In this document: positions 16,470-61,261 of the stretch, in pieces | How the letters are laid out: every line of letters starts with the position of its first letter | Position numbering within the stretch: the stretch's first letter is position 1 | Assembly: GCF_000150955.2 (NCBI RefSeq) | Contig: NC_011672.1 | Coordinates: 1,116,001 to 1,180,000, forward strand | DNA from: Phaeodactylum tricornutum CCAP 1055/1 | Taxonomy: Eukaryota > Bacillariophyta > Bacillariophyceae > Surirellales > Neidiaceae | Reading direction: 5' to 3' | Length of the DNA: 64,000 nt | Notes under the pieces: generated by a model | Told to the model about the DNA's origin: nothing | Database searches by the model: none | The model's input: the letters and a program-made list of their open reading frames with translations, nothing else | Translations under genes and position numbers: made by a program

Positions 16470-19464
16470 ATGGATCGTCAAAGCAATAATGGATCCATCA
16501 ATGCCACATCGTGCCGTCTTTGCCACTTTTCAGGAAGCGATGTGAGGCTTGGGTGTGGATGCACTCTCCATGCGGTGAGTTGGGTTTGGGTTGAATCGTT
16601 TGAGTCGGCGTTGCAATTGTTGGTTCATAAATATCTTAGACATCCCCATAATCGTATGCTTTGGATTGGCTGCTGAAAAAGTCTTTCTTCGCGGTTTGGA
16701 GGACCACTTGCCAAATATGCAGAATTTCTGTCGTCTTGTTGAAATGGCTTCTCCAATCAAAAGCTTGTCTTTTTTCAAGTCGGGAAGTCTCTATTTCACT
16801 ACATAGAAGTTGAATACCGTTTCATTTGCCAACGCGTCACTTGTCGCTTGCTTACCTATTCCAGTTTACGATCGTAAACAAAAACTATCCTGCTACTCAC
16901 ATGAACGAATTTTACTTTTGCCATGGATGCAGAGATGCGTTCCTCTCAGCCTGGTGATTTCTGCGAAAAGCGCCCCGCTTGGTTCGGCTATTGCAGCTAG
17001 CCCCAATCAAAACATGTGTCCTTTGTGTATGAGGGCTCCTGTCTCCGAAATGCATTTGTTCGCCATGACTATCGACGATTTGGACCAAGCTGTTGAGTGT
17101 CGCAAAAATTCCGTTATGAAAAAGGAGCATGGAAAAGCCGCTGAATCTTTTGAATTGGTACAGGCGGAAGCCTCGTATTTGCTGCTTGCGCACTCGCCTA
17201 TGTCGAACGGCATCTCCGGAGAACATAGCTACCAGCGCACAGGACGATGGACGGACGAAGAGACCGCCTTGACGGACTTTTTGATGGATGCTTTTGACAA
17301 GGGGAGGCTTCCAACTCCAGAGGGTATACGACTGAACGATTTTTTGTCAGGGCTGCTGCTTTGCAAAAATAGTCGTCTGACGAAAAAAATGAAGAACGCC
17401 AAGCTGAGCGTTCGGTCGTATGAATTTTCTGTCGACAAAGGCATCAATTTTTGTATCGACTTCCAGATGCTTTCGTCTCTGGAATCAAAATTCCTGGAAT
17501 CGGTCAGCTCGGAACCCACGAGGCTCGAACTCCGTTTTAATATGACTAAAATGTGGAGGTCCCATTTTTCGAACTTGTGTTTACAAGTTGGCTCGACATT
17601 ACTAAACGCAAGCGATTGGATATCAAGCTTGGAGACCATGGAATGTCGCGCGGCACAGGCAGAAGAATCAATTCGAAAGTCTCGTCGCCGTCGGATGGGA
17701 TTAGCATTGAAAAACGATGTCCGGGCGGCGGTAGTTTCCTCAACAGAAAGCGGAGTATTCTTCTCGGGAATGCCCATGAAAAAAATGGAATCTTCCAAAG
17801 TTACTAGGGCTGACTCAATGCTTTCAACGTCGAATCTCGTCTCAGCTGATGGTAGCGCGGTGGAAAATCCTCATGGACCTGGCGACGCAGAATCTCTCTG
17901 TGAGACAGACTTTGGAAGCGAAGCGGACTTTATCAACGAAATGTTGGACGGCAAGGGACAAACGGAGGATTTTTCAAAGATCCTGGACGACTTTGTAACA
18001 GGGGAACCATTTTTCCAGCCATCTAATCACCTGCGCAACAGTGCGGGACCATTTCTCGAAGAGATTGTTGCGTTTGTTGAAGCGCACAATTTGCCTTTCC
18101 AGCACGTAGATATTTGGGTTCCCTCCTACACTGTACAAGGTCGTGGCCAGCCCGACGAGCTACGTCTTTGTCATGCTGGACACGCTACACGAAGTGATTT
18201 GGATTCATCGCTCTTTTGCCAGCTGTTTGAGTACGGTGAGTACAGTACCAAGTTCTCTTTTGCCCCTGGGGCGGGTCTACCCGGACGAGTTTATTCGACA
18301 AACCGATTTTCGTGGGAGCGTCACATTGACCAAGCCGACCCGAGTTTGTTTAAACGCGCTGGTGGTGCCAAGATTTATGGAGTGCAAACTGGATTCGGAT
18401 TCCCGCTGAAGACAAATGCAATTGGCAAAATAGTTCTCTCCATGTATAGTACATCAGACGTTGCCGAAGATCCAACTGTCATAAAGTGTTGTCTGGAAAA
18501 CATAGGACAATATGTTCCTGAGCCGAAGTGGAAGTTAGTTGTGGAGATGGGCGATTCAGAAAAAAATTCTTCTTCAAGCGACCTCGTGTTAACCACCCCG
18601 GCCTTCGATTCTAGTAACTTGATCCACTACCAACATGACAGTAGCGAGGTAAACTCGCAATTGCTTAGCGTTTCACCTCTAGGTGCATCGGAGCAGAGGT
18701 CTGTTTTGAAACAGTCCCCAAGACTTTTTCCAGTTCAATCAAATGCATTAAATATGCGTAAGACATCGTCAGCCTCCATGTCAAGCCACGCTTCGTCTGA
18801 ACTACCCACGGATCCGGTCGAAGAAGAGCACTTTATCGCGACACTTTTGGGATACCACATGCCCCTCGCGGAAATTCCGTCAGCAAGAGAGCCGGAATCT
18901 TCGTCGGTCGCTCCAAGTCTTATGCTTCCACATTTTATGTCCCTTCGACTGCTTCTTCTTCGAGCTGAGGCTCGCCGTTCATCGAGAGATAATGAGCTGA
19001 TTGATGTCGTGAAAAAAAGCTTTCGCGGATATTCCAAAGACCAACGGCGTACTGACAAAGACCTGGCCTTTCTTCTAGTCAAGGATTGGCAATACCTTAT
19101 AGCCACTATGCCTGTAGACGAAAGAAAACCTGCGGCAAAACCCGCCGACACCCATCAGTGTCATGTTTTGAATACTCCAACTATTAAAACGTACTCGACC
19201 ACAGGGAATCCGGTTTCGATGCCAGCGTCTCTTGGTAAGGAAAACAAAAATGTTGTCAGCATTAAATTTTTCTATGGATGGCAGCGGGCTTAAACACCTT
19301 TTTGCGATTGTTCATTTTTAGGCTATCCCGATCAAAGCAAATCTCGGCAAAGTTCGTTTGACCTGAGCTTTGACTTGCGAGCTGCGAAACAGCGGAAAAT
19401 TTCTTCTTCCAACGAGTACGAGGCGCACGAACACAAAGTCAGCATTGTGGACGAGTTTGGTTAG
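16470..19464 (+). CDS. RING-GAF regulatory protein, RGQ-type candidate
   Basis: Predicted regulator of 849 residues in exons 16470-16574, 16933-19234 and 19322-19464; all junctions fit GT-AG and phase. The first splice completes a RING-type zinc finger: CRLCHFSGSD, CGCTLHA joined to RCVPL, and CPLCM (residues 15-67). Next is a conserved diatom block at about 137-200 (GRWTDEETALTDFLMDAF, LLLCKNSRLTKKMKN). A GAF-like domain lies near 405-560 (FSFAPGAGLPGRVYSTNRF, TGFGFPLK). The tail is Ser-rich. This layout resembles the diatom RING-GAF-Gln (RGQ) family reported as nitrogen-stress transcription regulators, though a long Gln tract is not evident. The domain calls come from the sequence; the RGQ link is from memory of the family. 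The last exon adds 48 residues that a model ending at 19293 would miss. Confidence 0.85.
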
Positions 19465-22028: not shown

Positions 22029-24347
22029 TCACATCAACGTGTAATCGGGTTGCTTCACAGTGCGACCGAATCGTGTCTTTTCCAATATCCTGCTTTTCGG
22101 CTCTGTCCCGGCATCGATAATTTTCGTGCCAACCAAGCACCGACGCTCCTTCGACCCTTTCGGCTTTCTTACAAGTGTTAAAGGGTATACTGTCTTGGCC
22201 GTCCACGATCTCCAAGAAATGGCCGATGAAGGGAATTCCTTTTCTCGGCGTTTGCCCCAGAAAAGTTGACGACAGCGATCTCGTACTTGCTTTGCTGTTT
22301 TGCGGAATGAGCTACCGAAGATAGGTAAGGTACTTTCACGGACGTAGTCAAAATCTCGGCCGTAGCTCTCAACCGCACGAATCAAAGACCGGTCCTCCAT
22401 AGACTCCAGTCTCCAATGATATTTTCCATCGACGGCTTCATCTCCTTTTCCATTGTTAGGAATTCCTAATGGACTCTTGTGGGCGACCACCGATCGGTGA
22501 CTCCGCCGTTGTGGGGACGCTGCAAGCGATCTTCTTCCGACTGCATGACTTCTTCTGTTCGATGGAATTCTTGGGCGTTGACGCAACTTCATCACCTCCG
22601 CAGCTCCACGGCGTCGATGCGATCTTGCTTTGCTGACTCGTTCTGTTCGGCCGTTCTGGCTTAATGAACTAATCTGCTGTTGACTGGCGTTGAATTTTCT
22701 TTCAATCGGAAATGTCCGAAGGTATAACTCTTCCTCTGAAAAGATGAAGTTATTGTTGGCTTCTGGCTCTAGCGCGATGTCAAGACGATAAGCTTCTCGT
22801 ATTCCTGAAAAGAAAGCTCCGTGAATTGTGCTCGGATGAAAAAAAGTTGTATGCTCCCCAGCAAACATAAGCGCTGGGACGTTCCCTATAGAATTCAACA
22901 CTGGCTCTCCCATAGCCCGAAGCTCAGCCGCTCCATCAACTCCTGGCGGAATGAAAGTGAAAGCCATTCGCGAGTACTGTTCGCGACCCCATCGTGTAGT
23001 ATGGTAGTCAGTTGGCTCGGGAACCTGGCATCCGCATATTCTACTTAGTATTCGCAAACAATCTGTCACAATCTCCGTGTCAGTCCATTTCTCGATCTCG
23101 TGTGCAAATTCGCCGCCAAACATGAAGAGAAGTACAGGGTTGTCTGTAAACGTGGCCCCATTCAGCACAAGGTACGAATGCTCGTCCTCAGCTAGGCCCA
23201 AAAAGTCTGAGTCTTGCCAGAAAACATGAGGAAACGACAATGTACACTTGTTCAATAGTCCAATACCTAGACGCTCAATAGCCTGTTGCTTTGGGGTCGG
23301 TAAAGGTGGGTCAAAGCTAATCGTCTTTCTTTTCAGAATACCCAAGGGCACTGTACATACAACCGAATCAGCCTCCAAAACCGTTCCGTCCATCAAGGTG
23401 ATTTGAACAACTGTGTTTCTCGGCCCAGTCTCGCCAGAATCGGTGCGCACTCGTTTTTTTAAATCGGCAGTCGCATGATCAACTGTAAATCGATCTACGC
23501 CTTGCCCTTTCAATACTCTGGGAGACCGGCGGGAATCAGCATCTTGACCCCGTACACGACGTGAATGTCGCGTCGGAGTAGACGGCAAAGATTCATTGAT
23601 ACATTGTGAGGAAGCAGTCCTAGGCATAGGAAGGCGGGTGGGCTGCCTCGACTCCTTCGTAGTGGTTACAGCTTTGGAGATAGGATTCGGATGCACGAGG
23701 TGGATCAACTCAACGGAAGCATTGTATACAATATCCAACGGTTCCGCCAAGGCTTCGACCACTGGTTTCCAACTTGCTTGCAGAGCGACGTGATCCCCGT
23801 CAAAGCCATAAGCCTCGTCCTCATTCCATTGCCATCCTAATTTCTCAAAACTGGTGCCACATGATACTTCTAGATTTGCTTTGTGCCATCTCAGTATAGC
23901 AGAAGTGTTGACGGCTTTTCCCTCGCAAACAGTGTTGAACAGGTCACCAAACGAAGTGTCGGATTGCTTTCCTCTTGTGCGTTCGAACGCTTCTTCGAGG
24001 CATTCATTAAATAAATGAGATATTCTTTCATCCTCGCGCAAATCTAGAGGCCATCCGGTCTTATCGAGCAGTAAAGTATCCGATACCGGTCGGGTGCGAA
24101 CGCCAATCTGATCCACCAACTCGGCTACGGGATTGTCGTCGATACCGTGTATGAGAGCGCCTCCCAGATCGACTTGCTGCTCGCCGGTAGGAAGTTGTAA
24201 GGCAGTGCCTTTCAGACGACCCCCCACGCGTTGCCGTGCTTCCACTACGAGAACGTGGTAGCCTCGGTGTTGCAGTTCGCGAGCACAGGATAGGCCCGAC
24301 ATGCCCGCGCCAATCACAATCACACGATGTGGACGTTGGCGCTTCAT
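22029..24347 (-). CDS. LSD1-like amine oxidase fused to a Myb/SANT domain
   Basis: FAD amine oxidase of 772 residues. The ATG at 24347 places RVIVIGAGMSGLSCAREL directly at the N-terminus. VVEARQRVGGR and DLGGALIHG complete the FAD site. GLLNKCTLSFPHVFW contains the lysine aligned with LSD1 Lys661, and GEHTTFFHPSTIHGAFFSG is the C-terminal FAD motif; both are closer to KDM1/LSD1 than to polyamine oxidases. There is no SWIRM domain before it, and in place of the LSD1 tower there is an Arg/Ser-rich insert (about 240-330). Residues about 644-700 form a Myb/SANT-like unit (WRLESMEDRSLIRAVESYG, KTAKQVRDRCRQLFW). Histone H3 lysine demethylation is the likely role; an FAD polyamine oxidase is the alternative. 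It is intronless. Confidence 0.87.
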   Translation of the reverse strand: MKRQRPHRVIVIGAGMSGLSCARELQHRGYHVLVVEARQRVGGRLKGTALQLPTGEQQVDLGGALIHGIDDNPVAELVDQIGVRTRPVSDTLLLDKTGWPLDLREDERISHLFNECLEEAFERTRGKQSDTSFGDLFNTVCEGKAVNTSAILRWHKANLEVSCGTSFEKLGWQWNEDEAYGFDGDHVALQASWKPVVEALAEPLDIVYNASVELIHLVHPNPISKAVTTTKESRQPTRLPMPRTASSQCINESLPSTPTRHSRRVRGQDADSRRSPRVLKGQGVDRFTVDHATADLKKRVRTDSGETGPRNTVVQITLMDGTVLEADSVVCTVPLGILKRKTISFDPPLPTPKQQAIERLGIGLLNKCTLSFPHVFWQDSDFLGLAEDEHSYLVLNGATFTDNPVLLFMFGGEFAHEIEKWTDTEIVTDCLRILSRICGCQVPEPTDYHTTRWGREQYSRMAFTFIPPGVDGAAELRAMGEPVLNSIGNVPALMFAGEHTTFFHPSTIHGAFFSGIREAYRLDIALEPEANNNFIFSEEELYLRTFPIERKFNASQQQISSLSQNGRTERVSKARSHRRRGAAEVMKLRQRPRIPSNRRSHAVGRRSLAASPQRRSHRSVVAHKSPLGIPNNGKGDEAVDGKYHWRLESMEDRSLIRAVESYGRDFDYVRESTLPIFGSSFRKTAKQVRDRCRQLFWGKRREKEFPSSAISWRSWTAKTVYPLTLVRKPKGSKERRCLVGTKIIDAGTEPKSRILEKTRFGRTVKQPDYTLM

Positions 24348-24843
24348 GATCGTTGTTTTTTTTTTCGTATCAAGACTGCGTGTTGCTCGCAATTCCGGCA
24401 GGCATTTCAATGCGCTTGTACCAGGTATAGAAGATAGTTGCGATAAGATGTAGATTTGGAGGAAATAAGCGCGCTCCTTTTCACAATACCATCAGCTCCC
24501 GACTGACAAGATGTGTGCGGTTGGTCAAGAGATTTTATTGCCGAGACAACACCATCGTGTCGGAAGCTGCAATGGAAGACGGCCAGACATATGAATTTTC
24601 TCGTAAAAGGATAGTATTTTCAGTTTGCCGTTTTTCCTGTCCGTCTGCGCTCGTTTAGGCGGCTGTCCAGCCGCCGATCATTTACTGTCAGGTAGCATAT
24701 TCCAAACAACACAAGCATTTCGGCTCTCATCGGTTTGGAACGACCATTGCGTACGCTACTCTAGCCAGTAAATCTTTTGAAGGCACGAAGAACATTTCAG
24801 AAAACCAACTAAACGTCAATTCCGGTAAAGAAATTGAACAAGC
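24348..24843. promoter_or_regulatory. Divergent promoter, LSD1-like and unknown gene
   Basis: Head-to-head spacer of about 500 bp. It contains TTTACTGTCA at 24681-24690. Nothing else is recognised. Confidence 0.35.
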
Positions 24844-30761: not shown

Positions 30762-32069
30762 ATGACTGACCGTCATATCACGACATCGCTCGAACCTTTA
30801 CCACCACCAGACTTATATATTCACTGTCAATACAATAGTGTCGTGCTTAGTTTCATGCCGCGAAACTTGGACGACTCCACTAAGAGTTTCATTCTGAGAG
30901 TTGCAGGATTCACCGTAACTTTGCTCGTGTGTTTCATCCTTTGGGGGCATCTATTCTTCTTGCCGAGACTGCGACGGAGGGCGTTAAAACTTTCCTCCGA
31001 GCAAGGAAGACGTGCGCCACCGCATTCGTATGAAACCCTTCTGTTGGTAGGTTGTGGTCAAACGATCCTCGTCTTATCGCTGCTGTCTTTTCTATTTACG
31101 CTACCAATCATCTTGTCCGGAAGGATTGACTCGGACGAAGCCAAGGCGTTGTCGGCAGATTTGACGTCTTCCATCAACTTTTGCGAAGACGACTTTCAAT
31201 TTTCGCGGTACGTTGCGGAACCAGCGAACGTGGCTTCGTCGCTCGGTGCCTACCTTCCCCTCGCATTTCATGGTCTAGCAGGACCACCCTCCCAGAGTTG
31301 GCGTCGGCGTCCATTGAGGGATGGCGTCCGCTTTGCTGCCGCCTACGCTACATTGGGCACAATTGGTGTCGGGTCCATGGCGCTCCACGCGCTTTTAACC
31401 TCCTGGACACAAGGTGGCGACGAGATTCCTATGCTCTGGTATACGGCCACAACCTGCTTTTGTGCCTTTGATATTTTGTGCTGGTGGAAGGAGACACACC
31501 ACCAGTGGCGTTCAGAACGCTTGGGAGCAGCCGTTGGCGTATCCGCCATCGGTGCGACTGTTACGTACATTTTGAATCGCAGCGACTTTACAGTTTTTTC
31601 CTTACTTTTTGCCATATATTCGCAGACCATGATCTTATCTATCTTGTATCTAGTGATCGGATTCGACTGGGAACATCGGCAGCCGAGTGGACCTGCTGCG
31701 GGTATTGAATTTCAGGTACATGTATTGCTGCCACTCGCCACAACTTCGGGCCTCTTGACGATCATGTCGATCGTTGTGTGGGCGTCAGAAATGGTGTATT
31801 GCCACACCGCAACTAGAGACGTGCACTTGGCAGATGCCACGTGGGTGACCGACCTGCTTTTCGTGGTTTGGAACTGGATGATTCATCCGTTGTGGCACGT
31901 TTTAACCGGTTTATTGGCGTGGATCGTGGTCCAGGTACTCTTTGCTGCACACGGTACCCAGCGTGGATGGGGAGTGGCTTCGGTCAAGTGGTCACTAGCA
32001 CCGTACGTGCTGTTCGAACCAATTGTTATGACCGATGGCAACAAAGCCAAACCCAAAAAGACTTTATGA
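30762..32069 (+). CDS. Alkaline ceramidase-like (CREST family) membrane hydrolase
   Basis: Predicted seven-helix hydrolase of the alkaline ceramidase family, which hydrolyses ceramide in ER/Golgi membranes using zinc. It has 435 residues; Met32 (MPRNLDDS) is an alternative start. The family's metal-site pattern is visible in order: CEDDFQFSRYVAEPANVASS, GVGSMALHALLTSW with a His, GGDEIPMLWYT with an Asp, and HPLWHVLTG with two His. Seven to eight hydrophobic segments cover the rest (FTVTLLVCFILWGHLFFL, LVLSLLSFLFTLPIIL). The short basic C-terminus (KAKPKKTL) is cytosolic-like. PAQR-type receptors share the superfamily, but the ExxN and HxxxH spacing favours ceramidase. Its 3' end lies 46 bp from that of the next, converging gene. 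Confidence 0.83.
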   Translation: MTDRHITTSLEPLPPPDLYIHCQYNSVVLSFMPRNLDDSTKSFILRVAGFTVTLLVCFILWGHLFFLPRLRRRALKLSSEQGRRAPPHSYETLLLVGCGQTILVLSLLSFLFTLPIILSGRIDSDEAKALSADLTSSINFCEDDFQFSRYVAEPANVASSLGAYLPLAFHGLAGPPSQSWRRRPLRDGVRFAAAYATLGTIGVGSMALHALLTSWTQGGDEIPMLWYTATTCFCAFDILCWWKETHHQWRSERLGAAVGVSAIGATVTYILNRSDFTVFSLLFAIYSQTMILSILYLVIGFDWEHRQPSGPAAGIEFQVHVLLPLATTSGLLTIMSIVVWASEMVYCHTATRDVHLADATWVTDLLFVVWNWMIHPLWHVLTGLLAWIVVQVLFAAHGTQRGWGVASVKWSLAPYVLFEPIVMTDGNKAKPKKTL

Positions 32070-35061: not shown

Positions 35062-38000
35062 ATGCAGGTTTCCTCAACAGGCGGGATGTGGACGATTCTG
35101 CTCCTCGCCTTCTTGTGGTCGTGTACGTGTATAGCGTTTACCACACCGAGATGGTTTCCGACGCCAAATATGCGTCACAGTCAATCCATTGTGCCACTGT
35201 TCGATCGTATCCCGCCATCCTTTCCGTCACTGGAAATGGCGGGCGCGAATACAACGGGTAGTGGGATGAATAGCGCTCAGACGCTATTTCCAACACCGGA
35301 TAGGACTAGTCTCGCATCAATCTACACCTCGGAATCCCACACGGCAGCGGCGGCGGTGATGTCGAATGGATTCAATTACAGCGCTCACTACAATACTGCT
35401 GCTTTAATTCCTCCTGTCACTTTCACATCCGCATCCACCGAAGTCGCTGCGGAGAAGGACCGTTCCGAGGCTGACACTCCACCAGAAGTCAATCACTGGA
35501 CCGAAATAATGCGGGTCGGGTGGAAAGATGATACGTCTACGACTAATAGCTCCACCACATCGGCACAAATCAGCAGTAGCAGCACAAAGTGGGACGCTGT
35601 ATGGTCCGACTACGATTTGCAACAAATCGAACGCTACTGGGATCGGATCATGCCAACGGTTAGCTACCTGGGAACCGACGCGGTCGCCAAGATTTACCAA
35701 GCTCTATGTGTCGCGTACCGCGCCCATCGTGGCCAGATGCGCAAATCTGGGGAACCATTCATCGTACATCCTGTGGAAGTATCCTTGCTTTTGAGCGGCT
35801 TGAAAATGGACGCCGAAACTGTCATGTCGGGTTTATTACACGATACCGTCGAAGATACGGATCTCACCTTTCAGCAAGTCGAGACGCTGTTTGGACATAC
35901 GGTTAGAAGTATCGTCGAGGGCGAAACCAAAGTCAGCAAATTACCAAAGTTGGCGTTTGCCGAATATGCTGATGAACAGGCGGAGAATTTGCGGCAAATG
36001 TTTGTGGCCATGACTAGTGATTACCGCATCATTATTGTCAAATTGGCTGATCGGCTTCACAATATGCGAACTCTGCGATACATGAAATCAGAAAAACAAA
36101 TCAAAATATCACGGGAGACGCTAGACATATTTGCGCCCTTGGCGCATCGCATGGGCATCTGGCAGTTCAAGAGCGAATTGGAGGACACTTCTTTCATGTA
36201 TTTGTATCCTCAGGAATACAAACGACTGAACCGGCGATTACGACTGCATCAACAAAGCTTCCAGGAGACTCTGGAAAAAGCGCAAGACATCTTGCAGCGT
36301 CAGCTAAATCTAGACTCAACATTGCAGCAGCAAGCTTACAAGGTTGAGGTTTCAGGGCGTACAAAAGAGATATACTCCCTCTGGCATAAGATGGAAACAA
36401 AAAATGTGCAAAACCTCGATCATATAGTCGACGTTGTTGCTCTGCGGGTCGTTATTTCCCCTCGGGATAAATCTGTGGAAGCTGACAAATCAGAATTGTC
36501 GAATGATTCGGATCGTGGTGTATGGCTTTGCTACCATGCTCTAGGGCTTGTTCAGCATTTGCCGGGCTTTGTTCCGGTTCCCACCCGAGTCAAAGACTAC
36601 ATATCCTTCCCTAAGCCAAATGGATACCAAAGCTTGCACACGGCATTGATCCTCAACGGCCAAACAATCGAAGTACAGATCCGGACTAGTATGATGCATC
36701 AAGTAGCTGAATACGGTAGGTTTTGAATGTTTCAATGAAGGTACTTCTTTCTATAGTCTTGGTGACCTAACCTCTCTCGGGTTCCTCTCAGGTATGGCAA
36801 GTCACTGGGCGTATACGGACGATAAACGTCGCGGGAGTAATGAGGAGCTATACAGCACGCCCTGGCTTTCATCGATTAAGGAGTGGCAGAATGAAGCAGT
36901 TAGCTCAAGGGATTTCGTCGACAGCGTTCGTCGTGAACTTCTTGGCAAGAGAGTTTTTGTCTTCTTGCGCAACGGCAAGATTCTAAACCTAGCTCGGGGT
37001 GCCACAGCAATTGATGCTGCCTTTCAGATCCATACCGAAGTTGGCTTGTCAATGCACGGAGTAGAAATCAATGGGAAACCTGTTCCTTTATCCTACGAAT
37101 TACAAAACGGCGACGTCGTTTCTATTCTTACGGGCAGTGGAAGGCCGGCCACGGATTGGATGCGCTACGCCAAAAGTCGCTCCACGAGATCAAAACTGCG
37201 ATCCTATTTTCGTGATCGACAAAAGGAAAGTCTTCGAGAGGCCGGGAAGATTCTCCTCATGGATTATCTTACAGTGCACGGGACACTGATTCAAGAGTCG
37301 TCATATCTTGAGAAAGACTTTGCTATTCCAAAATCAACAGAAGAGTTGGAATATTTGCTGCCAGGCAAGACATCGTTCAACGATGTTGACGAGCTCTTAG
37401 TGGGAATTGGGAAAAACCACAATCGCTCAAAACTCCACCAAATTGTATCGCAGCTTTTCGAGGTCCCCAAAAGGATATTAATTACTGCTGAGGAGAAGAA
37501 GATACCCCGTCTTCCAAGCAACATTTTTGCTGCCGTTCAGTTGCGTCAAGATCGGGCGAAAGATGCGGGAGATGCGGTTGATCTGGTCGGTGAAATCGTG
37601 ACAGACCCAGCCACTTGGAGCACTTTGCCGAAGAAGTCTGTGTTTAGCTATTCGGCAGAGAGTATGCTGGCTGGTCTTGACCTACCAATCGAATACGCTG
37701 ATCCTGAGCATCTTTGCGTTGACTGTTTGCCTGTATACGAAGACGAAATTGTTGGTACGCGAAAATCGGGAAGCGTGTCAATTCCCATGGTCCATCGTGT
37801 TGGATGTCCTCACGCGCAACGCGCAATTAATCAAGCCAAAGCGCACCAGCGTCAAAAACCTTTTGTGTCAAAGCTACAAAATGTTACCTCTGTTCCAGGA
37901 ACCTCGATTCCAAGACCACAGCTTCGAGTTGACAGCGTAAGTTTGCGACAGACTTATGGCAAGACAGCACCTTGGATGCGTAGAGCGGGAGGTCAAACAT

Positions 38001-38317
38001 CCAAGTACAAATCAGGAACTGTCGATCTACCTGTCAAACTTCAGTGGTCGGACTTGGACGAAAAAGACAGTTTGTTCCTCTCTGAAATTGTTGTCCACTG
38101 TGGAGACCGCAAACTACTCCTTGCAGACTGCTCCGAAGTGGTTTCTGAAACGGTCGAAATTATCAAAACCGGAAGCTCAACAAACGAAGAAACGGCAACG
38201 CTTGTCTTTTTGGTGCGAGTGGGGGGACTCGGGCACATTCAAACGTTGATGGATCGTCTCATGAAAGTCCGTAGTGTTTTGAGCGTCGAAAGACGGTTTG
38301 GTTCGGAGTTGCGCTAG
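35062..38317 (+). CDS. RSH: RelA/SpoT homologue, plastid (p)ppGpp synthetase/hydrolase
   Basis: Makes and degrades the alarmone (p)ppGpp that tunes plastid transcription and translation. Exons 35062-36715 and 36792-38317 join over a 76-bp intron to give 1059 residues; the junction rebuilds MMHQVAEYGMASHWAY. The N-terminus has a signal peptide (MWTILLLAFLWSCTCIAF) with an AFTTP-type plastid site. The hydrolase HD domain is intact: RHR-like AHRGQMRKSGEPFIVHPVE, LLHDTVEDTD and KLADRLHNMRTL. The synthetase domain has SGRTKEIYSLWHKM, KDYISFPKPNGYQSLHT and IEVQIRT. A TGS domain follows (VFVFLRNGKILNLARGA), and a C-terminal ACT-like domain ends it (CGDRKLLLADCSEVVSE). This full layout suggests a bifunctional, RSH1-type enzyme; which named paralogue it is I cannot tell. 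Confidence 0.95.
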
Positions 38318-41582: not shown

Positions 41583-42305
41583 ATGTCCGTTGATCCTCCC
41601 AAGCGAGACAAGTTTGCCGCTCTGGCGCAACAATTGCAACTGAAGCAGGCGTCATCCAATGTTTCTCAATCGATACAAATCGCTCCACAAGGTGATAAGC
41701 TGGCCGCCATGGGGGCAGCACGATCAACTAACGAAGATTCGCTGTCGAATCGAAGTGATGCGCTACGAGCACCCCGTCGGGACAAGCTAGCCGCCATGGG
41801 ACAACGGATTTCACCGAGCACTGGTGAAGCATCACTGTTGCCGGAATCACCGAAACAGAAAGAGCAAGAAGAGGCTCAAGAAAGCCGCAGGAACGCTATG
41901 GAAGAACGGGCTCGACAGCGCGACTCCGTCTGGAAGGATCTCGAAAGGGCAGAAGCAGCAACCATTAAGCTCCTCCAACTTGCCCAAGAAACAGCAGCGA
42001 CATTAGCGGACGCGACAAATTCCGTGATACCGTTGACAACGCTGTCTAAAAATGCCGCGGCTTATCGTGATACTCTCTCGAACATTCACGATTGGCTTTC
42101 ACCACACTCGTCTCTCGTCGTTGCCTACCAGGCACCCTCGCGCACCAATCATGTGTACGAGGCCCGGGTAGAATGGCGGCTAGCCGAAGAGAAACGAGCG
42201 CTTCTGCAAGAGTTCTTGCGCCTTCATAAACACCAGGAAAGTGTCGCAATAGAGGACGATGCACTGCCTGTAACGGATATCTTGAAGCGGAAACGAGACG
42301 AATAA
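41583..42305 (+). CDS. Small protein with DKLAAMG repeats, helical C-terminus
   Basis: A 240-residue soluble protein of unknown function. Three short repeats are spaced through the first 75 residues: RDKFAALAQQ, GDKLAAMGAA and RDKLAAMGQR. A charged coiled-coil-like stretch follows (about 95-150: KQKEQEEAQESRRNAMEERA), then helices and a basic end, DILKRKRDE. The helical part from residue about 110 is reminiscent of Mediator subunit 11, but I see no decisive motif. No signal peptide or membrane helix. No intron. Confidence 0.72.
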   Translation: MSVDPPKRDKFAALAQQLQLKQASSNVSQSIQIAPQGDKLAAMGAARSTNEDSLSNRSDALRAPRRDKLAAMGQRISPSTGEASLLPESPKQKEQEEAQESRRNAMEERARQRDSVWKDLERAEAATIKLLQLAQETAATLADATNSVIPLTTLSKNAAAYRDTLSNIHDWLSPHSSLVVAYQAPSRTNHVYEARVEWRLAEEKRALLQEFLRLHKHQESVAIEDDALPVTDILKRKRDE

Positions 42306-42764: not shown

Positions 42765-44831
42765 TTATAGTCCACTGGGTTTGGACGAGAATAACGTCAC
42801 AAGCTGCATCAGTTTGTCCTGTAACGAAGCAGATTGCGGTGGAGGTGGCGGTGGAAGCTGCACGCTGCCCCCCGATGGCTTATTGCTGTTAAGCGAAAAG
42901 AGCAAAGATTGCAGCACGTTGTGATCTAGTCCGCCTCCTAGTTGCGACAGCTGCTGGACTGTTGATTGTTGCTGCGGTATAGGCTGCGGTGTAGACGGCG
43001 TTCCCTGACCTTTTAAGGTTTCCAGTAAGCTGAGGAGAGTGGAAGCATTGCTTGTTGGCTGTGTCTGGTGGTGGGAAGCCTGACTAAAAGGCTGTTGCTG
43101 AACCTGCGGTGCCGGAGAAACAGTCGAAAAAGGATAGGAGGGAGCTGGTTTACTTCGTGCTGCCAGTAAAGACTGGACGAGTGCAGCCGTATCTGTCGCC
43201 GTCTGTGACTGATCTCTTGAAATTAGACGAAGCAGTTGACTCCGTACTTCAATCTCGCGTTGCAGTGCCTGCTGCATGGCATTTGGGGGAACAGAATCGT
43301 GCTGCGTCGACGCAGGAGCGGGCTGTTGTTCAAAAAGCATCTGTAGATTCACACGCGAGGGGTCCGGAACAGGGGGTTGTTGCCTTTGTTGCTGCAAAGC
43401 CGCAATCAAGTTGGCAACGCTGGTGTTACTAACGTTGCTTGTTGTGCGTGTAGTAATCTGCGGCTGCGGAAGGACCGCGCGAGGACGATTCCGCTCAATG
43501 ACAGCTATTTTGTGGCTGGCATCTATCACTAACGTTTCGAACCTTTTGTTCTCTTCTTCAAGCTTCATATTTTTCTTGCTAAGTGCCAGGCACTGGTCCT
43601 GGAGGAGATCTTCTTCGGAACGTTCCCGCTCCCGACGCTTGCGCGCATAGATGGCGTCCATCTGGCGCTTGCGTTCCTTTCGAGCGCGATTACGAGCAAT
43701 ATCGGCGGCTTCCACGAGCTTGCTCAACTCGACCGAGTCTCCATCGGCTTGCTTTCCGTTCTTGCGGCGCTTCTTGGCCACATGATCAATTGGTAGAGCG
43801 GAAAGGTCCATAGCGGCCTCTTGTGCCGAAACAGACGCGGCAGAACGCTTCGAACGTTGTTTGATCCAAGCGGATAACTTAGAGTACATCCAGGTGCCCC
43901 CGAGTGTGGTTGGGAGACTTTCCTTCGTGAGACCGTAGGGTTCGAGCTTGGGCAACATGTCTTTTTCGGAAGTCGTCACGTGTACGTGGCATTTGCCGCT
44001 ATCCTCGTCTCGAAAGAGCTGTGTGGTAATAGGAATGATGGTTTGTAGGTAGGTTCGCTTGGCGCCCGATGGAGGGCGACAGCACAAGTGAAAGGAACTT
44101 ATTCTTACGGGCAAGGCATCGCTGGCAAAGTGTAGTACCCGTTGCAATTCAACGCGATCGATGTTGGCCTTGTTGAGGAGACGGAGAACGACAACACCGT
44201 CTGTCTGAGCCTTGGATGACTGCGCTGCCATACTGAACCAGTAAAAGAGACATCGCAAACGGCTCTCCTTGATGTTAAGATCTGGAGATTCGGAACGCGC
44301 ACGATCCATGCACAGTACGGTTCTACCCCACTTATCATCGGGCAATTTGACAACGAGACCCGATGAGAGGTTCTCGACGTCTTCCGCGGTGAGAGCGCCT
44401 TCTCCCGAGAGCTCGTGTAGAGGTAGGAAGGCTCGTTCACCAAACGTGGAGCGTCTCCGAGTCCAGTAATTCGCGAGACGGCGAGCCGTGGAAGGAACGT
44501 CGTATTTCTCGCGGCGCAAGAAGTGGAGTGGTTTGGACTCGCTCTGTACCAATTCTGGACACCTTGCCAAGGCCAGAGAATAGTCCGCATTGTCTACCGG
44601 GGATAACGCGCGTAGGGCTAGCGTAAGTTCCGCTTCCGCCTTTCGGTTCTTTTTGGCAGGGTATTCGGAAAGCTCCTTGGTAGCCGAAAAGGCCTTCGAT
44701 AAAGCGGTATCCTTCGAAATGCTTCGTTTCTTTAGAGGGCCTACTTCTGCACTGCTTTCGGAAGAGGGATACTCTTCATTGGAAATGGTAGCCGGTTGCT
44801 TGTAGTTGTCCATGTTGACGCGGAGGTCCAT
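42765..44831 (-). CDS. CRAL-TRIO (Sec14-like) / bZIP fusion transcription factor
   Basis: A 688-residue protein joining a lipid-binding domain to a DNA-binding domain. The CRAL-TRIO N-helix region is at about 104-155 (LHFLRREKYDVPSTARRLA, NYWTRRR). The Sec14-like lobe is at about 160-325 (DGVVVLRLLNKANIDRVE, ALPVRISSFHLCCRPPSG, LPTTLGGTW). A basic stretch (KKRRKNGK) follows, then a diatom-type bZIP at about 380-440: RKERKRQMDAIYARKRRER with heptad-spaced hydrophobics in QDQCLALSKKNMKLEEENKR. The classical basic-region Asn is not at its usual place. Residues 450-688 are Gln/Pro-rich, as in activation domains. The frame is continuous with no intron, so this is a true single reading frame. A lipid-regulated transcription factor is the inference. 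Confidence 0.87.
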   Translation of the reverse strand: MDLRVNMDNYKQPATISNEEYPSSESSAEVGPLKKRSISKDTALSKAFSATKELSEYPAKKNRKAEAELTLALRALSPVDNADYSLALARCPELVQSESKPLHFLRREKYDVPSTARRLANYWTRRRSTFGERAFLPLHELSGEGALTAEDVENLSSGLVVKLPDDKWGRTVLCMDRARSESPDLNIKESRLRCLFYWFSMAAQSSKAQTDGVVVLRLLNKANIDRVELQRVLHFASDALPVRISSFHLCCRPPSGAKRTYLQTIIPITTQLFRDEDSGKCHVHVTTSEKDMLPKLEPYGLTKESLPTTLGGTWMYSKLSAWIKQRSKRSAASVSAQEAAMDLSALPIDHVAKKRRKNGKQADGDSVELSKLVEAADIARNRARKERKRQMDAIYARKRRERERSEEDLLQDQCLALSKKNMKLEEENKRFETLVIDASHKIAVIERNRPRAVLPQPQITTRTTSNVSNTSVANLIAALQQQRQQPPVPDPSRVNLQMLFEQQPAPASTQHDSVPPNAMQQALQREIEVRSQLLRLISRDQSQTATDTAALVQSLLAARSKPAPSYPFSTVSPAPQVQQQPFSQASHHQTQPTSNASTLLSLLETLKGQGTPSTPQPIPQQQSTVQQLSQLGGGLDHNVLQSLLFSLNSNKPSGGSVQLPPPPPPQSASLQDKLMQLVTLFSSKPSGL

Positions 44832-46669: not shown

Positions 46670-48331
46670 ATGCCTATTTCAAACAGCAGTCACCTAGCTG
46701 GACACAACACCGTCCCGATAGGAAGCACCAAATATCAGAATAACGCTTTAGCTGGGTTTGACCCCTTTTTCTCCACGAAAACAAAGCATCCCGTAGCCGC
46801 TCGGTCGACGCACCTCTCAGGAAGCGTCACACCACCTTGTCAGCCAGAAGAGTCTCGAGATGGGGAAGGATCACCGGATAATCGTCCATTCACTCCCCCG
46901 GATATGGCCTCGGAACTCCGCGTCTTAGCAATGGAACTAAGCAAACTATCGTCTAGCAACTCAAGTTCTCAGTTAGAGCCTCAGACTCTGACCACCATCC
47001 GACATGATAATCAGAAAGTGATTCCTAAAAACACAAGCCCCGTGAAAAAGGAAAAAGGAACATTTCTTCCATGGCAAAGAAAAACAAATCGCAAGACCGA
47101 TTATTTTGCAACTGCGACTAGTACATCAAAGGGTCTACGAACACAAAACAAACAGCCAGCCACAGCGACTAGAGGCAGATCTACCGGTGCTAGCATCAAA
47201 GCGAACCCCACGTCTCCATTGCTTCAAGAATTGTGGGACGTGCAGAAAGAATTCGACAAGACAGCGAAAGTGAAGGATTCCCTTGCCATACCATCACTTG
47301 CCAAGCCGCGTCCAACATCGTTCTTGACCGGTATGGAAACCATTCGTACCCCTGAATACGAAGCAGCTGAATGGCAAGTTAGCATACCAGCCAAGACTGA
47401 GTTCCAGGTTTGCATCAGACTCTCTCAATATCTTGAGACATATCAAAAAGAGGAATGTTTGCTGAATCTAAATGACTTAACAGGAGCAAGTCGGATGGAG
47501 CTTGCTTCGTTTGCTCGTGGTAGCTATGGTAGTCTTACAGGAAAGATAGCTGATTGTCACCGACCAATCGTGGAGTCACTTTTGGAGTGCGGCAGTGACA
47601 TTCAGCAAATCTGTGGCTTTCTCACCTCGGACGTGTCTAACAGCGATCCAAGCAGCCGCCGAGAAGTTTTGATTGTTGAGAGGCAACGGCAATTTCTTTG
47701 CGTGTTTCGCGGTACGAATACCGAACAACTAGGAAAAGCTCCCAAAGACACCAATGTAACCATTCTGAAGGATACTGGAATACACGTTAGTGTCTTCATT
47801 GATCGGTACAAGGCGCTATGCGAAATTGAAGGAAAGCTGTTTACCTTGATAGATCAACTTGTTGAAGAGAACCCTTTTTATGACGTGGTCTTTTCAGGAC
47901 ACGGGTACGCCGCTGGTTTGGCTACATTGGCCTCTTACCGGTATGCATCCGCACGGCCGGAATTGCGTATAGGCAGCTTAGTCTCAGCAAGTCCCAAAGT
48001 CGGATTGGACGACTTTCGAAAGAGCGTGAATTCACTGTCGAATCTCAAGGTATTTCGATTAGAGTGCGGTCATTCCAAATTTCATTCGAGCAGCAGCCAT
48101 GCTTGTCACGTAGGTCATTCGATCCGAATTCATCCTTCGAAACATACAGTTTCGGCATATCGGTTCAGCACTTGGCAAGGAGGGCTCGCTCTTCCATTCA
48201 AACGTGAAAAAGACGTGTCAAGCTATGCTGCAGCACTAGAATCCCTAGGCTCGGTTTGGATCGCCGACTTTCACAGAGAAGACGGAGCCGGAGTTCGTGG
48301 AACAGACAACGAAGTAAGACTTATGGTTTAA
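46670..48331 (+). CDS. Class-3 lipase-like protein without the nucleophile
   Basis: A 553-residue protein with a disordered Ser/Thr/Lys-rich first half (to about 215) and an alpha/beta-hydrolase domain of the lipase class 3 type in the second. QFLCVFRGTNTEQLG corresponds to the family's oxyanion-region FRGT motif. YDVVFSGHGYAAGLATLASY, near residue 410, corresponds to the nucleophile elbow GHSLGGALATL; the serine is replaced by glycine. SASPKVGLDDFRKSV matches the following SPRVG block, and a His follows in the C-terminal part. Ordinary Ser-dependent lipase activity is therefore unlikely, although the fold and frame are intact. No signal peptide or membrane segment is visible. Function unknown; binding or scaffolding is a guess. 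Confidence 0.82.
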   Translation: MPISNSSHLAGHNTVPIGSTKYQNNALAGFDPFFSTKTKHPVAARSTHLSGSVTPPCQPEESRDGEGSPDNRPFTPPDMASELRVLAMELSKLSSSNSSSQLEPQTLTTIRHDNQKVIPKNTSPVKKEKGTFLPWQRKTNRKTDYFATATSTSKGLRTQNKQPATATRGRSTGASIKANPTSPLLQELWDVQKEFDKTAKVKDSLAIPSLAKPRPTSFLTGMETIRTPEYEAAEWQVSIPAKTEFQVCIRLSQYLETYQKEECLLNLNDLTGASRMELASFARGSYGSLTGKIADCHRPIVESLLECGSDIQQICGFLTSDVSNSDPSSRREVLIVERQRQFLCVFRGTNTEQLGKAPKDTNVTILKDTGIHVSVFIDRYKALCEIEGKLFTLIDQLVEENPFYDVVFSGHGYAAGLATLASYRYASARPELRIGSLVSASPKVGLDDFRKSVNSLSNLKVFRLECGHSKFHSSSSHACHVGHSIRIHPSKHTVSAYRFSTWQGGLALPFKREKDVSSYAAALESLGSVWIADFHREDGAGVRGTDNEVRLMV

Positions 48332-58990: not shown

Positions 58991-61261
58991 ATGAGTGTAT
59001 GCGTTGACGACATTGACAATGATGATGATGAGAGTAGTACCGGAGAGAAAAGCATTGGAAATCGGTGCGCGTCGCCGCCCGTCCACGCCATGCTCGACAC
59101 ACCCGACGTGGTGGAACAAACCATACAAACCATGGAAACCAAGCACTTGTGTGTTCCGGCACAGCACGGACACGCATTCCAGCCAATCCATTTCGCTTTT
59201 GGGTTGAGAACCTGTGCCGCTTGCCGAGGTCGTTTGGGTGTCGTTGTTTTTGGACACAACGAAGCACAAGGAATCGTCAAGTGTGTTACCTGCCAAGTGC
59301 TCGCCCATCGTCGCTGTGCGCTCGCCCCAAACGTACTTTGGCAAAATCACTGCGTCGGAACGATTCGACAACTCGCCGATACCAGCAAGGAGAACGAAAC
59401 GGGTAAAACGGAATCCACAAGCATTGGCAATTTGGATACGGCATCGACCGTCACCGATACTGTACAACCGAATCCGTTGAACGAGGCTGTTCACGAGAGA
59501 GACAATGGCGACACGAAAGATGCTTCGAAACGGCACCTAGACAATCCTACCGATTGGGGATTGACTTGGACAGATCAAGGGCCTCCACATCACTGGGCAT
59601 CCTCCCCCCAAAATATCTCGCTTGCCATTCCCACGATCAGCCTACAAAGTAGAACATCATCATCATCATCATCATCGACAACAACAACAAGCAACGTGGC
59701 GAACGATGGAGAGGATAGCGCCACCGGCGTCGAATCGACAACAACACCCGCATTACATTACGCCAATCATCCATTCGCCAGCGTATCCCGGGCCTTGCAA
59801 GAAAACGTGGTGGCGCACTTTCGTCGTCGGGGGGCATCGACGGATAGTACCACAGCCGATCAGGCGGATGAAAATGGAATTGTACCCAAAGCGTTGCAAG
59901 TGGATGCAGTACCGGATAGTAAGCCCGTCGATGATCACGACCAGCACCATCCACTCCTTAAACTGGCCAGTGGCACGTACGAAGCTGCCAAAGCCTCCGT
60001 CACCCTTCCTCGCCGCATTGGTGTTGCCACAGTGGCGGGTGGTATTGCCGGAGGAATGGCTGGTATTGTACTAGCGGGTCCAGCAGGAGCACTGGCGGGA
60101 TACAAACTAGGACAAGCGTGTGGAATGCTCGGTGTTATTCTAGAAGGATCAGTCAGCATCGGTGTTTTTGTTGCGAGTGTCGCTACTGCGGGCTACACCG
60201 CACAGCAACTTCAAGAAATGAATGAACGACGCGTGCTCACCATGGGTGAAGAGAGCACATCGTTGAAGGTTCTGTTGGTCCGGCCGAACATTCAAATTGA
60301 TCCTATATGGGCGCAAATCTGCACCGACGCCAAACGCGACGCACCCAAGGAATCTACACAACCGTTTCACATGTTTTCTGACGGATTTAACGTACGATAT
60401 AGACGTGATGAAGATATTGTCAAGGCAGACGAAGATGAGATTCCAACCAACGATAAAATATTGCTATTGGTCAGTCGCATCCTAAACGACAAGTCGAGTA
60501 TGCCAGGATACGTGTATCGAGCGCTCATCGAACAATTTTGTATACGTGGCGAAGAGCGTGCGCGTGTACTGCAGGAAAGTACATCGGTGACGGCACTTAG
60601 TACACGGTCACGCCGGGACGACGCACACGCCGTGATCAAACACGTTACGGCAACGCTTTTGGAAGTCCGCCCCGGGTTCGGTCATTCCCGAGCCATAACG
60701 GAACTGACCGCAGCTGCGGTGGAAAGCTTGGTGTTTGGCAAATTGTATGATTCTGTGTTCGGGGAGATTGCATTCGAAACGGAAGAAATTGATACGAAAC
60801 TATTGGATCGGGTTGCGGAGTTTGAAGCTTCGGAACATTCGATCAACAAGGAACTCGTGTCAGAACAAGCGCTCGCGGCTCTCTGTACACTACCAGAAGC
60901 ACACTCGGCTGTTGACAAGCTCCACTACGGTGTAAAATTTCTGGAACTGCTTTCGAGTCACTTTTCGGAGTCAGGCAATCCAATTTGTGCGGATTCTCTA
61001 TTGAAAATGGCTTGCCAACATATTTTAGCCGCCAAACTTCCGCAAATGAACGCCGAGGTCGCCTTTTTGGAAGAATTTGCCCGCGACGAACAACTATTGA
61101 AAGGGCGAGAAGGGTACGCGTTGGTCACGCTACAGGCTTCGATGCACTTTCTCAACCTGAGCCAAGATTTTTACCGGGATATTTTTGCACAAGAAGATAC
61201 GGAAGACAATATACCGTTAGAGCCTTCCGAAAAAGGAACATATAAGTTAAATGGACAATAG
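58991..61261 (+). CDS. C1-type zinc finger / VPS9-domain protein, Rab5-GEF candidate
   Basis: A 756-residue protein, probably an endosomal exchange factor. Residues about 60-125 form a C1-like zinc finger: HAFQPIHFAFGLRTCAAC, then KCVTCQVLAHRRCALA and a last Cys. A low-complexity linker follows with Ser7-Thr4 and acidic runs. Near 345-405 is a Gly/Ala-rich hydrophobic hairpin (VAGGIAGGMAGIVLAGPAGA, then ILEGSVSIGVFVASVATAGY) that could insert into a membrane. The C-terminal half is all-helical and carries the VPS9 signature near 665-715 (CADSLLKMACQHILAAKLP, FLEEFARDEQLLKGREGYAL), the catalytic core that activates Rab5-type GTPases. DAG binding by the C1 finger is uncertain because its spacing is longer than typical. 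The ATG at 58991 is the first in frame; no intron. Confidence 0.85.
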   Translation: MSVCVDDIDNDDDESSTGEKSIGNRCASPPVHAMLDTPDVVEQTIQTMETKHLCVPAQHGHAFQPIHFAFGLRTCAACRGRLGVVVFGHNEAQGIVKCVTCQVLAHRRCALAPNVLWQNHCVGTIRQLADTSKENETGKTESTSIGNLDTASTVTDTVQPNPLNEAVHERDNGDTKDASKRHLDNPTDWGLTWTDQGPPHHWASSPQNISLAIPTISLQSRTSSSSSSSTTTTSNVANDGEDSATGVESTTTPALHYANHPFASVSRALQENVVAHFRRRGASTDSTTADQADENGIVPKALQVDAVPDSKPVDDHDQHHPLLKLASGTYEAAKASVTLPRRIGVATVAGGIAGGMAGIVLAGPAGALAGYKLGQACGMLGVILEGSVSIGVFVASVATAGYTAQQLQEMNERRVLTMGEESTSLKVLLVRPNIQIDPIWAQICTDAKRDAPKESTQPFHMFSDGFNVRYRRDEDIVKADEDEIPTNDKILLLVSRILNDKSSMPGYVYRALIEQFCIRGEERARVLQESTSVTALSTRSRRDDAHAVIKHVTATLLEVRPGFGHSRAITELTAAAVESLVFGKLYDSVFGEIAFETEEIDTKLLDRVAEFEASEHSINKELVSEQALAALCTLPEAHSAVDKLHYGVKFLELLSSHFSESGNPICADSLLKMACQHILAAKLPQMNAEVAFLEEFARDEQLLKGREGYALVTLQASMHFLNLSQDFYRDIFAQEDTEDNIPLEPSEKGTYKLNGQ
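59655..59690 (+). repeat. In-frame trinucleotide repeats (CAT/CAA)
   Basis: A short run of CAT/ATC triplets followed by ACA/CAA triplets inside the C1/VPS9 gene, translated as poly-Ser then poly-Thr. It sits in the disordered linker. Confidence 0.8.

Follow-up and report, generated by a model that had tools for sequence, protein, structure and literature searches.

A single open reading frame of Phaeodactylum tricornutum joins a divergent CRAL-TRIO domain to a bZIP-like helix

An uninterrupted open reading frame of the diatom Phaeodactylum tricornutum CCAP 1055/1 carries a CRAL-TRIO family match and, further along the same chain, a predicted helix with the residue spacing of a bZIP. The frame lies on the minus strand of a 64,000-nucleotide stretch of contig NC_011672.1 (positions 1,116,001 to 1,180,000), which we call the window and in which all coordinates below are counted. 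The plan of a sensor domain joined to a zipper is already known; here the two parts are CRAL-TRIO and a bZIP-like helix. From the arrangement of the parts we infer that the protein may be nuclear, may dimerise, may contact DNA and may hold a ligand. The features discussed are the following.

42765..44831, minus strand, stop included: the whole fusion protein as a single ORF, 688 amino acids, uninterrupted
44328..44549, minus strand: presumed site of the N-terminal lobe, residues 95-168, placed by position only
43881..44327, minus strand: divergent CRAL-TRIO domain, residues 169-317, aligned to profile positions 1-135 of 137 of PF13716
44019..44108, minus strand: candidate in-frame intron of 90 nt with GTAAG at codon 242, judged unspliced
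43761..43775, minus strand: KKRRK, residues 353-357, nuclear-localisation-like by motif scan, with a putative function
43491..43748, minus strand: continuous predicted helix, residues 362-447 (AlphaFold2, single sequence, mean pLDDT 94.7)
43617..43694, minus strand: basic region, residues 380-405; Asp392 takes the place of the invariant Asn and is followed at +8 by Arg400
43497..43604, minus strand: zipper heptads, residues 410-445 (L410, L417, L424, F431, A438, I445)
within 43497..43604, minus strand: zipper a-positions C414, N421, N428, V435 and I442
42768..43493, minus strand: Gln/Pro/Ser-rich tail, residues 447-688, with short hydrophobic clusters and two LxxLL motifs (599, 640)

The ORF runs from an ATG to a stop codon, and reading upstream in the same frame one first meets a stop at codon -13. 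The original prediction had placed the fusion in one uninterrupted frame, and this holds: no stop codon separates the CRAL-TRIO match from the bZIP-like helix, and two products would therefore require splicing. By arithmetic that assumes even base use, the chance of 688 open codons is (61/64)^688, about 5e-15. A codon-usage score, for which 7,962 codons from 13 further long ORFs in the window (unannotated frames) served as training set, gave 0.13 for the N-terminus, 0.07 for the CRAL-TRIO domain, 0.17 for the linker, 0.11 for the helix and 0.06 for the tail; the frame of the ORF came top of all six in each of these five regions and the other frames were all negative. In blocks of 40 codons the score was above zero in 17 of 17 and highest of the six frames in 16, a reverse frame scoring 0.06 against 0.02 for the ORF in block 641-680. 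Blocks 161-200, 241-280, 561-600 and 641-680 scored 0.01-0.03, where flanking sequence reaches up to 0.04, and over codons 481-560 reverse frames came near the score of the ORF (0.07 versus 0.09; 0.04 versus 0.06). Given these weak blocks, coding support is clear for the N-terminus, the linker and the helix and weaker along parts of the domain and the tail.

It is very improbable that the architecture is an artefact of the gene model, arising from two genes or from a spliced product that parts the domains. A splice scan limited to GTRAG donors and to YAG acceptors within 400 nt found one donor in the ORF, at codon 242, with acceptors 90 nt on (in frame) and 110 nt on (out of frame), and block 241-280, which covers the candidate intron, has the lowest codon-usage score (0.01), as an artefact of this kind would lead one to expect. 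Set against this are the 688 codons without an in-frame stop and the linker, whose codon-usage score is the highest of the five regions. After deletion of the 90 nt (30 residues) the CRAL_TRIO_2 match fell into two parts and scored 25.3 bits instead of 51.5 (cut-off 23); because removal of the candidate intron halves the score in this way, we took the ORF as unspliced at codon 242. Two genes, or splicing that separates the domains, were rejected on the continuous frame, the codon usage and the intron test. The gene contains three short two-copy families of direct repeats, and tblastn within the window at E up to 1 returned no paralogue, the gene matching itself alone.

Profile searches gave the predicted architecture a mixed outcome: PF13716 scored above its cut-off, PF00650 and bZIP stayed below threshold, and PF03765 had no match. 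CRAL_TRIO_2 (PF13716) scored 48.6 bits on the whole protein (Pfam cut-off 23, E 1.3e-12) and 51.5 bits on residues 95-335 alone (E 1.7e-13). The classical PF00650 profile scored 17.7 bits on residues 95-335 (E 0.0032), under its cut-off of 22.6, and was absent from the Pfam matches of the whole protein. PF03765, which describes the N-terminal lobe, matched neither the whole protein nor residues 95-335 at E up to 10, with scan filters that discard most matches above E about 0.1, nor residues 80-150 at E up to 1. The segment FLRREKYDV..RLANYW, within residues 95-168, presumably resembles the N-lobes of Sec14-type proteins. A Sec14-type module had been predicted over residues 104-325; residues 169-317 bear this out, while residues 104-168 have no profile match. 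No NCBIfam family matched, and AlphaFold2 without an alignment gave residues 80-340 a mean pLDDT of 35.1. A sequence search of the PDB with residues 95-335 at E up to 10 returned five matches, none named as a CRAL-TRIO protein; with the whole protein, two weak matches to ribosomal proteins came up (E 0.082 and 0.16) and were judged to be chance.

The available text of PMC3313917 gives the residues typical of CRAL_TRIO domains, in Sec14p numbering, as E152, D178, P206, P218, K/R239, P261, G265 and G266. Alignment with Sec14p under three matrices, at a score that is not significant (reached by 148, 27 and 461 of 1000 shuffles), placed P206 on P241, K239 on K280, P261 on P307 and G265-G266 on G311-G312 each time. 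The same non-significant alignment placed P218 on P253 or P254, E207 on Val242 and D178 on Val or Asn, and E152 fell outside the aligned piece. Since the alignment score is itself not significant, these correspondences are anchors and not proof. A BCH domain was considered and rejected: the hallmark R(R/K)h(R/K)(R/K)NL(R/K)xhhhhHPs had no exact match, the best windows agreeing at 7 of 15 scored positions. The second glycine of the CRAL_TRIO pair is reported missing from BCH domains (PMC3313917, available text), and both glycines are present here as G311-G312. The family match shows the domain to descend from lipid-pocket proteins and does not imply that the pocket is occupied by a ligand. A sterol- or carotenoid-like ligand, as had been suggested, finds no support in a match to the divergent CRAL_TRIO_2 family with Val242 at the site of Sec14p Glu207 in the weak alignment.

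AlphaFold2 predicts one 86-residue helix in the region that follows, with a mean pLDDT of 94.7 over the 91-residue piece modelled; other strongly charged helices may well be predicted as single helices too. Neither proline nor glycine occurs in residues 365-448. Counted from Asp392, R400 lies at +8, L410, L417, L424 and F431 at +18, +25, +32 and +39, and Asn421 at +29, and we take the positions of the arginine, the leucines and the asparagine to be comparable with those of GCN4 and Jun. The basic region and heptads that had been predicted at about residues 380-440 are therefore recovered, with R400, the four heptad residues just named, asparagines at a-positions 421 and 428, and the predicted helix over residues 362-447. 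A score for this register, devised after the sequence was seen, was reached in no case out of 20000 when residues 360-455 were shuffled and in 2 out of 20000 when only the zipper half was. The sole PDB match of the helix region at E up to 10 was ATF-4 (1ci6), at E 0.34 and in the bZIP register, with D392 aligned on the asparagine of ATF-4.

Pfam scores for the helix are low. With a cut-off of 27.6 bits, bZIP_1 (PF00170) reached 10.4 bits (E 0.72) on residues 382-432 of the whole protein and 14.8-14.9 bits (E about 0.03) on the excised fragment, and bZIP_2 (PF07716) matched the fragment at E 1.4-3.1. On the fragment bZIP_1 was outranked by DUF6553 (E 0.0038-0.0048); in the whole protein CRAL_TRIO_2 and bZIP_1 were the only Pfam families matched. 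The bZIP_1 and bZIP_2 models matched the real piece and none of 30 shuffles, which kept the basic and zipper halves apart and with them the charge layout, in a scan whose filters remove most matches with E above about 0.1. VWA_CoxE was hit by one shuffle at E 0.0041, and an E of about 0.004 from such compositions is therefore unconvincing alone.

An arginine eight residues after the asparagine position, leucine heptads from +18 and a continuous helix are all present, as in a bZIP, whereas the profile scores of 10.4-14.9 bits miss the Pfam cut-off and the invariant asparagine is Asp392. The helix is bZIP-like and not a certified bZIP; the results taken as a whole make bZIP descent probable, with aspartate in place of the DNA-reading asparagine. 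Because the DNA-contact residue has changed from N to D, DNA binding is not assured. The bZIP transcription factor of the original prediction remains plausible in register and helix, and is weakened by the sub-threshold PF00170 score and by Asp392.

The helix is flanked by segments of the kind that might suit a nuclear regulator. A motif scan placed KKRRK between the CRAL-TRIO domain and the helix and KKNRK at residue 60, in the N-terminus. The Gln/Pro-rich character predicted for the tail is plain from its composition: its 242 residues are 16% Q, 13% S, 12% P and 12% L. A tandem-repeat origin was considered for the tail, and no array was found there. Short hydrophobic clusters, which are usual for activation domains in Gln/Pro-rich sequence, number 14 against a shuffle mean of 5.3, a count reached in 5 of 5000 shuffles for a pattern that was picked after the tail had been viewed and with overlaps counted.

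We propose a working model in which one nuclear protein would consist of an N-terminal CRAL-TRIO pocket, a basic linker acting as a nuclear localisation signal, a dimerising bZIP-like helix and a Gln/Pro-rich, activation-type tail. A lipophilic ligand, perhaps a phospholipid or another membrane-derived lipid, would fill the pocket; the filled pocket would alter the stability, the nuclear location or the zipper dimerisation of the protein, and its altered state would change transcription of target genes. The logic would be that of the plant START-HD-Zip IV factors, made from other domains. By analogy with plant START-HD-Zip factors, a nuclear regulator in which a lipid-sized ligand sets dimerisation, stability or location is the reading that we tentatively adopt, at a little under an even chance. 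The stricter proposal, that of a lipid-gated diatom transcription factor in which the CRAL-TRIO pocket exerts direct control over a bZIP whose DNA-reading residue is altered, is rather unlikely. Counting against a ligand reading are the sub-threshold bZIP_1 score, the replacement of the invariant asparagine by aspartate and, in the non-significant alignment, the lack of conservation at the Sec14p D178 and E207 positions.

These same observations bear on two further explanations. In one, the CRAL-TRIO domain would serve protein interaction or membrane attachment, as in its BCH/RhoGAP-type relatives, and the bZIP-like helix would dimerise; such a scaffold might be a co-regulator that descends from a bZIP but has lost the reading of DNA, acting for instance as dominant-negative partner to other bZIPs. 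The divergent CRAL_TRIO_2 match well above PF00650, the alignment (weak as it is) of Sec14p E207 with Val242 and the loss of D178, and the change of the DNA-contact asparagine to aspartate would all suit a scaffold, but the BCH hallmark motif is absent and the G311-G312 pair, typical of CRAL_TRIO and reported to lack its second glycine in BCH (PMC3313917, available text), is present. Also against a scaffold, oomycete bZIPs, those with a substituted Asn included, are mostly transcribed, and motility and infection depend on one of them, Pibzp1 (PMC4046829, available text). We regard the scaffold as a possibility on the doubtful side.

In the other, the helix would be unrelated to bZIP: a single helix rich in charge, or a coiled coil, belonging to a CRAL-TRIO protein engaged in lipid handling or in RNA or chromatin binding. 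The sub-threshold Pfam bZIP scores and the higher rank of DUF6553 on the fragment are what such a helix might give, yet it would have to account for the register of R+8, L+18/+25/+32 and N+29 over a stretch free of proline and glycine, for a register score (devised post hoc) that shuffling of the whole fragment or of the zipper half hardly ever reproduces, and for bZIP models that match none of the 30 shuffles. We consider this explanation improbable. The reading of a nuclear regulator responsive to a lipid-sized ligand is the one carried forward below.

The window has a GC content of 48.7%, and tRNA and Rfam scans at gathering scores found nothing in it. A violaxanthin de-epoxidase-type protein at 294-1709 on the minus strand (VDE, E 2.1e-102) fits a photosynthetic eukaryote. 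On the plus strand, an HD/RelA_SpoT frame at 35062-36723 is followed after a short gap by a TGS/ACT frame at 36794-38314, and the two look like one RSH gene with an intron (35062-38317). This pair fits the published PtRSH1, which has these domains and is described in the available text of PMC6881373 as the sole P. tricornutum RSH gene with an intron. A flavin amine oxidase at 22029-24410 on the minus strand (E 2e-61) has a weak, sub-cut-off Myb-like match near its C-terminus (E 0.033) and may be an amine oxidase of the chromatin type that carries a DNA/histone module. In an 827-residue frame at 16810-19293 (plus strand) bHLH-MYC_N matches weakly (27.9 bits, cut-off 30.2, E 3.4e-06), and at 58991-61261 (plus strand) a VPS9 domain shares one frame with a possible diacylglycerol-binding C1 domain (E 0.00039, sub-cut-off). 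Also on the plus strand are a ceramidase at 30762-32069 (E 1.5e-27), a weak, sub-cut-off GLTP glycolipid-transfer match at 41583-42305 (E 0.052) and a class 3 lipase at 46670-48331 (E 1.2e-09); their occurrence within 15 kb of the CRAL-TRIO gene is probably a coincidence.

No relative was found among viral contigs (whole protein, CRAL-TRIO fragment and bZIP-like fragment), prokaryote genome contigs (whole protein and CRAL-TRIO fragment) or, by tblastn, plasmids; these were the collections searched, and they are therefore silent on conservation in diatoms. The gene may already be labelled CRAL-TRIO or bZIP in public annotation. In the literature searched, mostly the main texts of freely available papers, a CRAL-TRIO-bZIP fusion is not described and no paper combines bZIP, diatom and CRAL-TRIO. 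The main text of PMC4827209, which treats domain combinations peculiar to stramenopile factors, contains neither "CRAL" nor "Sec14". In the Seminavis robusta genome 40 CRAL-TRIO genes are mentioned among the clade-signature genes (PMC7335047, available text); the word "bZIP" is absent from the main text of that paper, which therefore describes no CRAL-TRIO/bZIP fusion.

The original prediction knew of no well-studied example of such a protein. This needs qualifying: HD-Zip III/IV factors of plants offer a well-studied analogue, and ligand-dependent activation of transcription has been reported for TAP/SEC14L2. Plant HD-Zip III/IV factors likewise unite a lipid-pocket domain with a DNA-binding and zipper dimerisation unit in one chain. 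Theirs are a START domain and a homeodomain, whereas here they are CRAL-TRIO and a bZIP-like helix, of unrelated folds; neither homeodomain nor START is among the Pfam matches of the whole protein at E up to 10. The lipid domain of HD-Zip III/IV factors is C-terminal to the zipper, in contrast to its N-terminal position here. In the HD-Zip IV factors PDF2 and ATML1 the START domain binds ceramides, which is tied to turnover and dimer levels, although the authors say that lower accumulation of the protein may by itself account for the effect on dimers (PMC10126025, available text). START-HD-Zip proteins have been likened to nuclear receptors (PMC3645734, available text).

TAP/SEC14L2 is, like the diatom protein, a CRAL-TRIO protein, and to our knowledge it has no DNA-binding domain. 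In the presence of its ligand alpha-tocopherol it was reported to move into the nucleus and to activate transcription, and in mast-cell work cited in the same paper the ligand did not relocate it (PMC8070221, available text).

Two comparisons come from stramenopiles. Aureochromes have a canonical bZIP. They belong to the same algal group and fuse a sensor domain to a bZIP, as the protein described here may do, the available text of PMC4827209 reporting both LOV-bZIP and bHLH-PAS fusions in stramenopile algae. The aureochrome sensor is LOV, whereas the CRAL-TRIO protein matched no LOV or PAS family in Pfam at E up to 10 over its whole length. Replacement of the basic-region asparagine is known from oomycetes, stramenopiles too, whose non-canonical bZIPs (C-R, V-R and R-R; Pibzp1) also keep the arginine; the substitutes there are Cys, Val and Arg, unlike the Asp found here, a class unnamed in the available text of PMC4046829, in whose main text the string "aspart" is absent. 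The same text gives 71 bZIP candidates in P. sojae, all but one (with PAS) reported without an extra domain.

The working model concerns how lipid state might reach the genome. Diatoms strongly store and remodel lipids with nutrient state. If the model is true, a regulator with a lipid pocket and a zipper in one chain would be a direct candidate for the route by which a lipid signal reaches diatom genes, and it would meet with new domains a need that nuclear receptors serve in animals and START-HD-Zip proteins in plants. In the stricter, lipid-gated form of the proposal it would stand to both as a convergent counterpart based on the Sec14 fold. The proposal is testable in one gene of P. tricornutum, an alga with knock-out tools. 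Aureochromes would then become one case of a wider stramenopile pattern in which sensors are joined to bZIPs.
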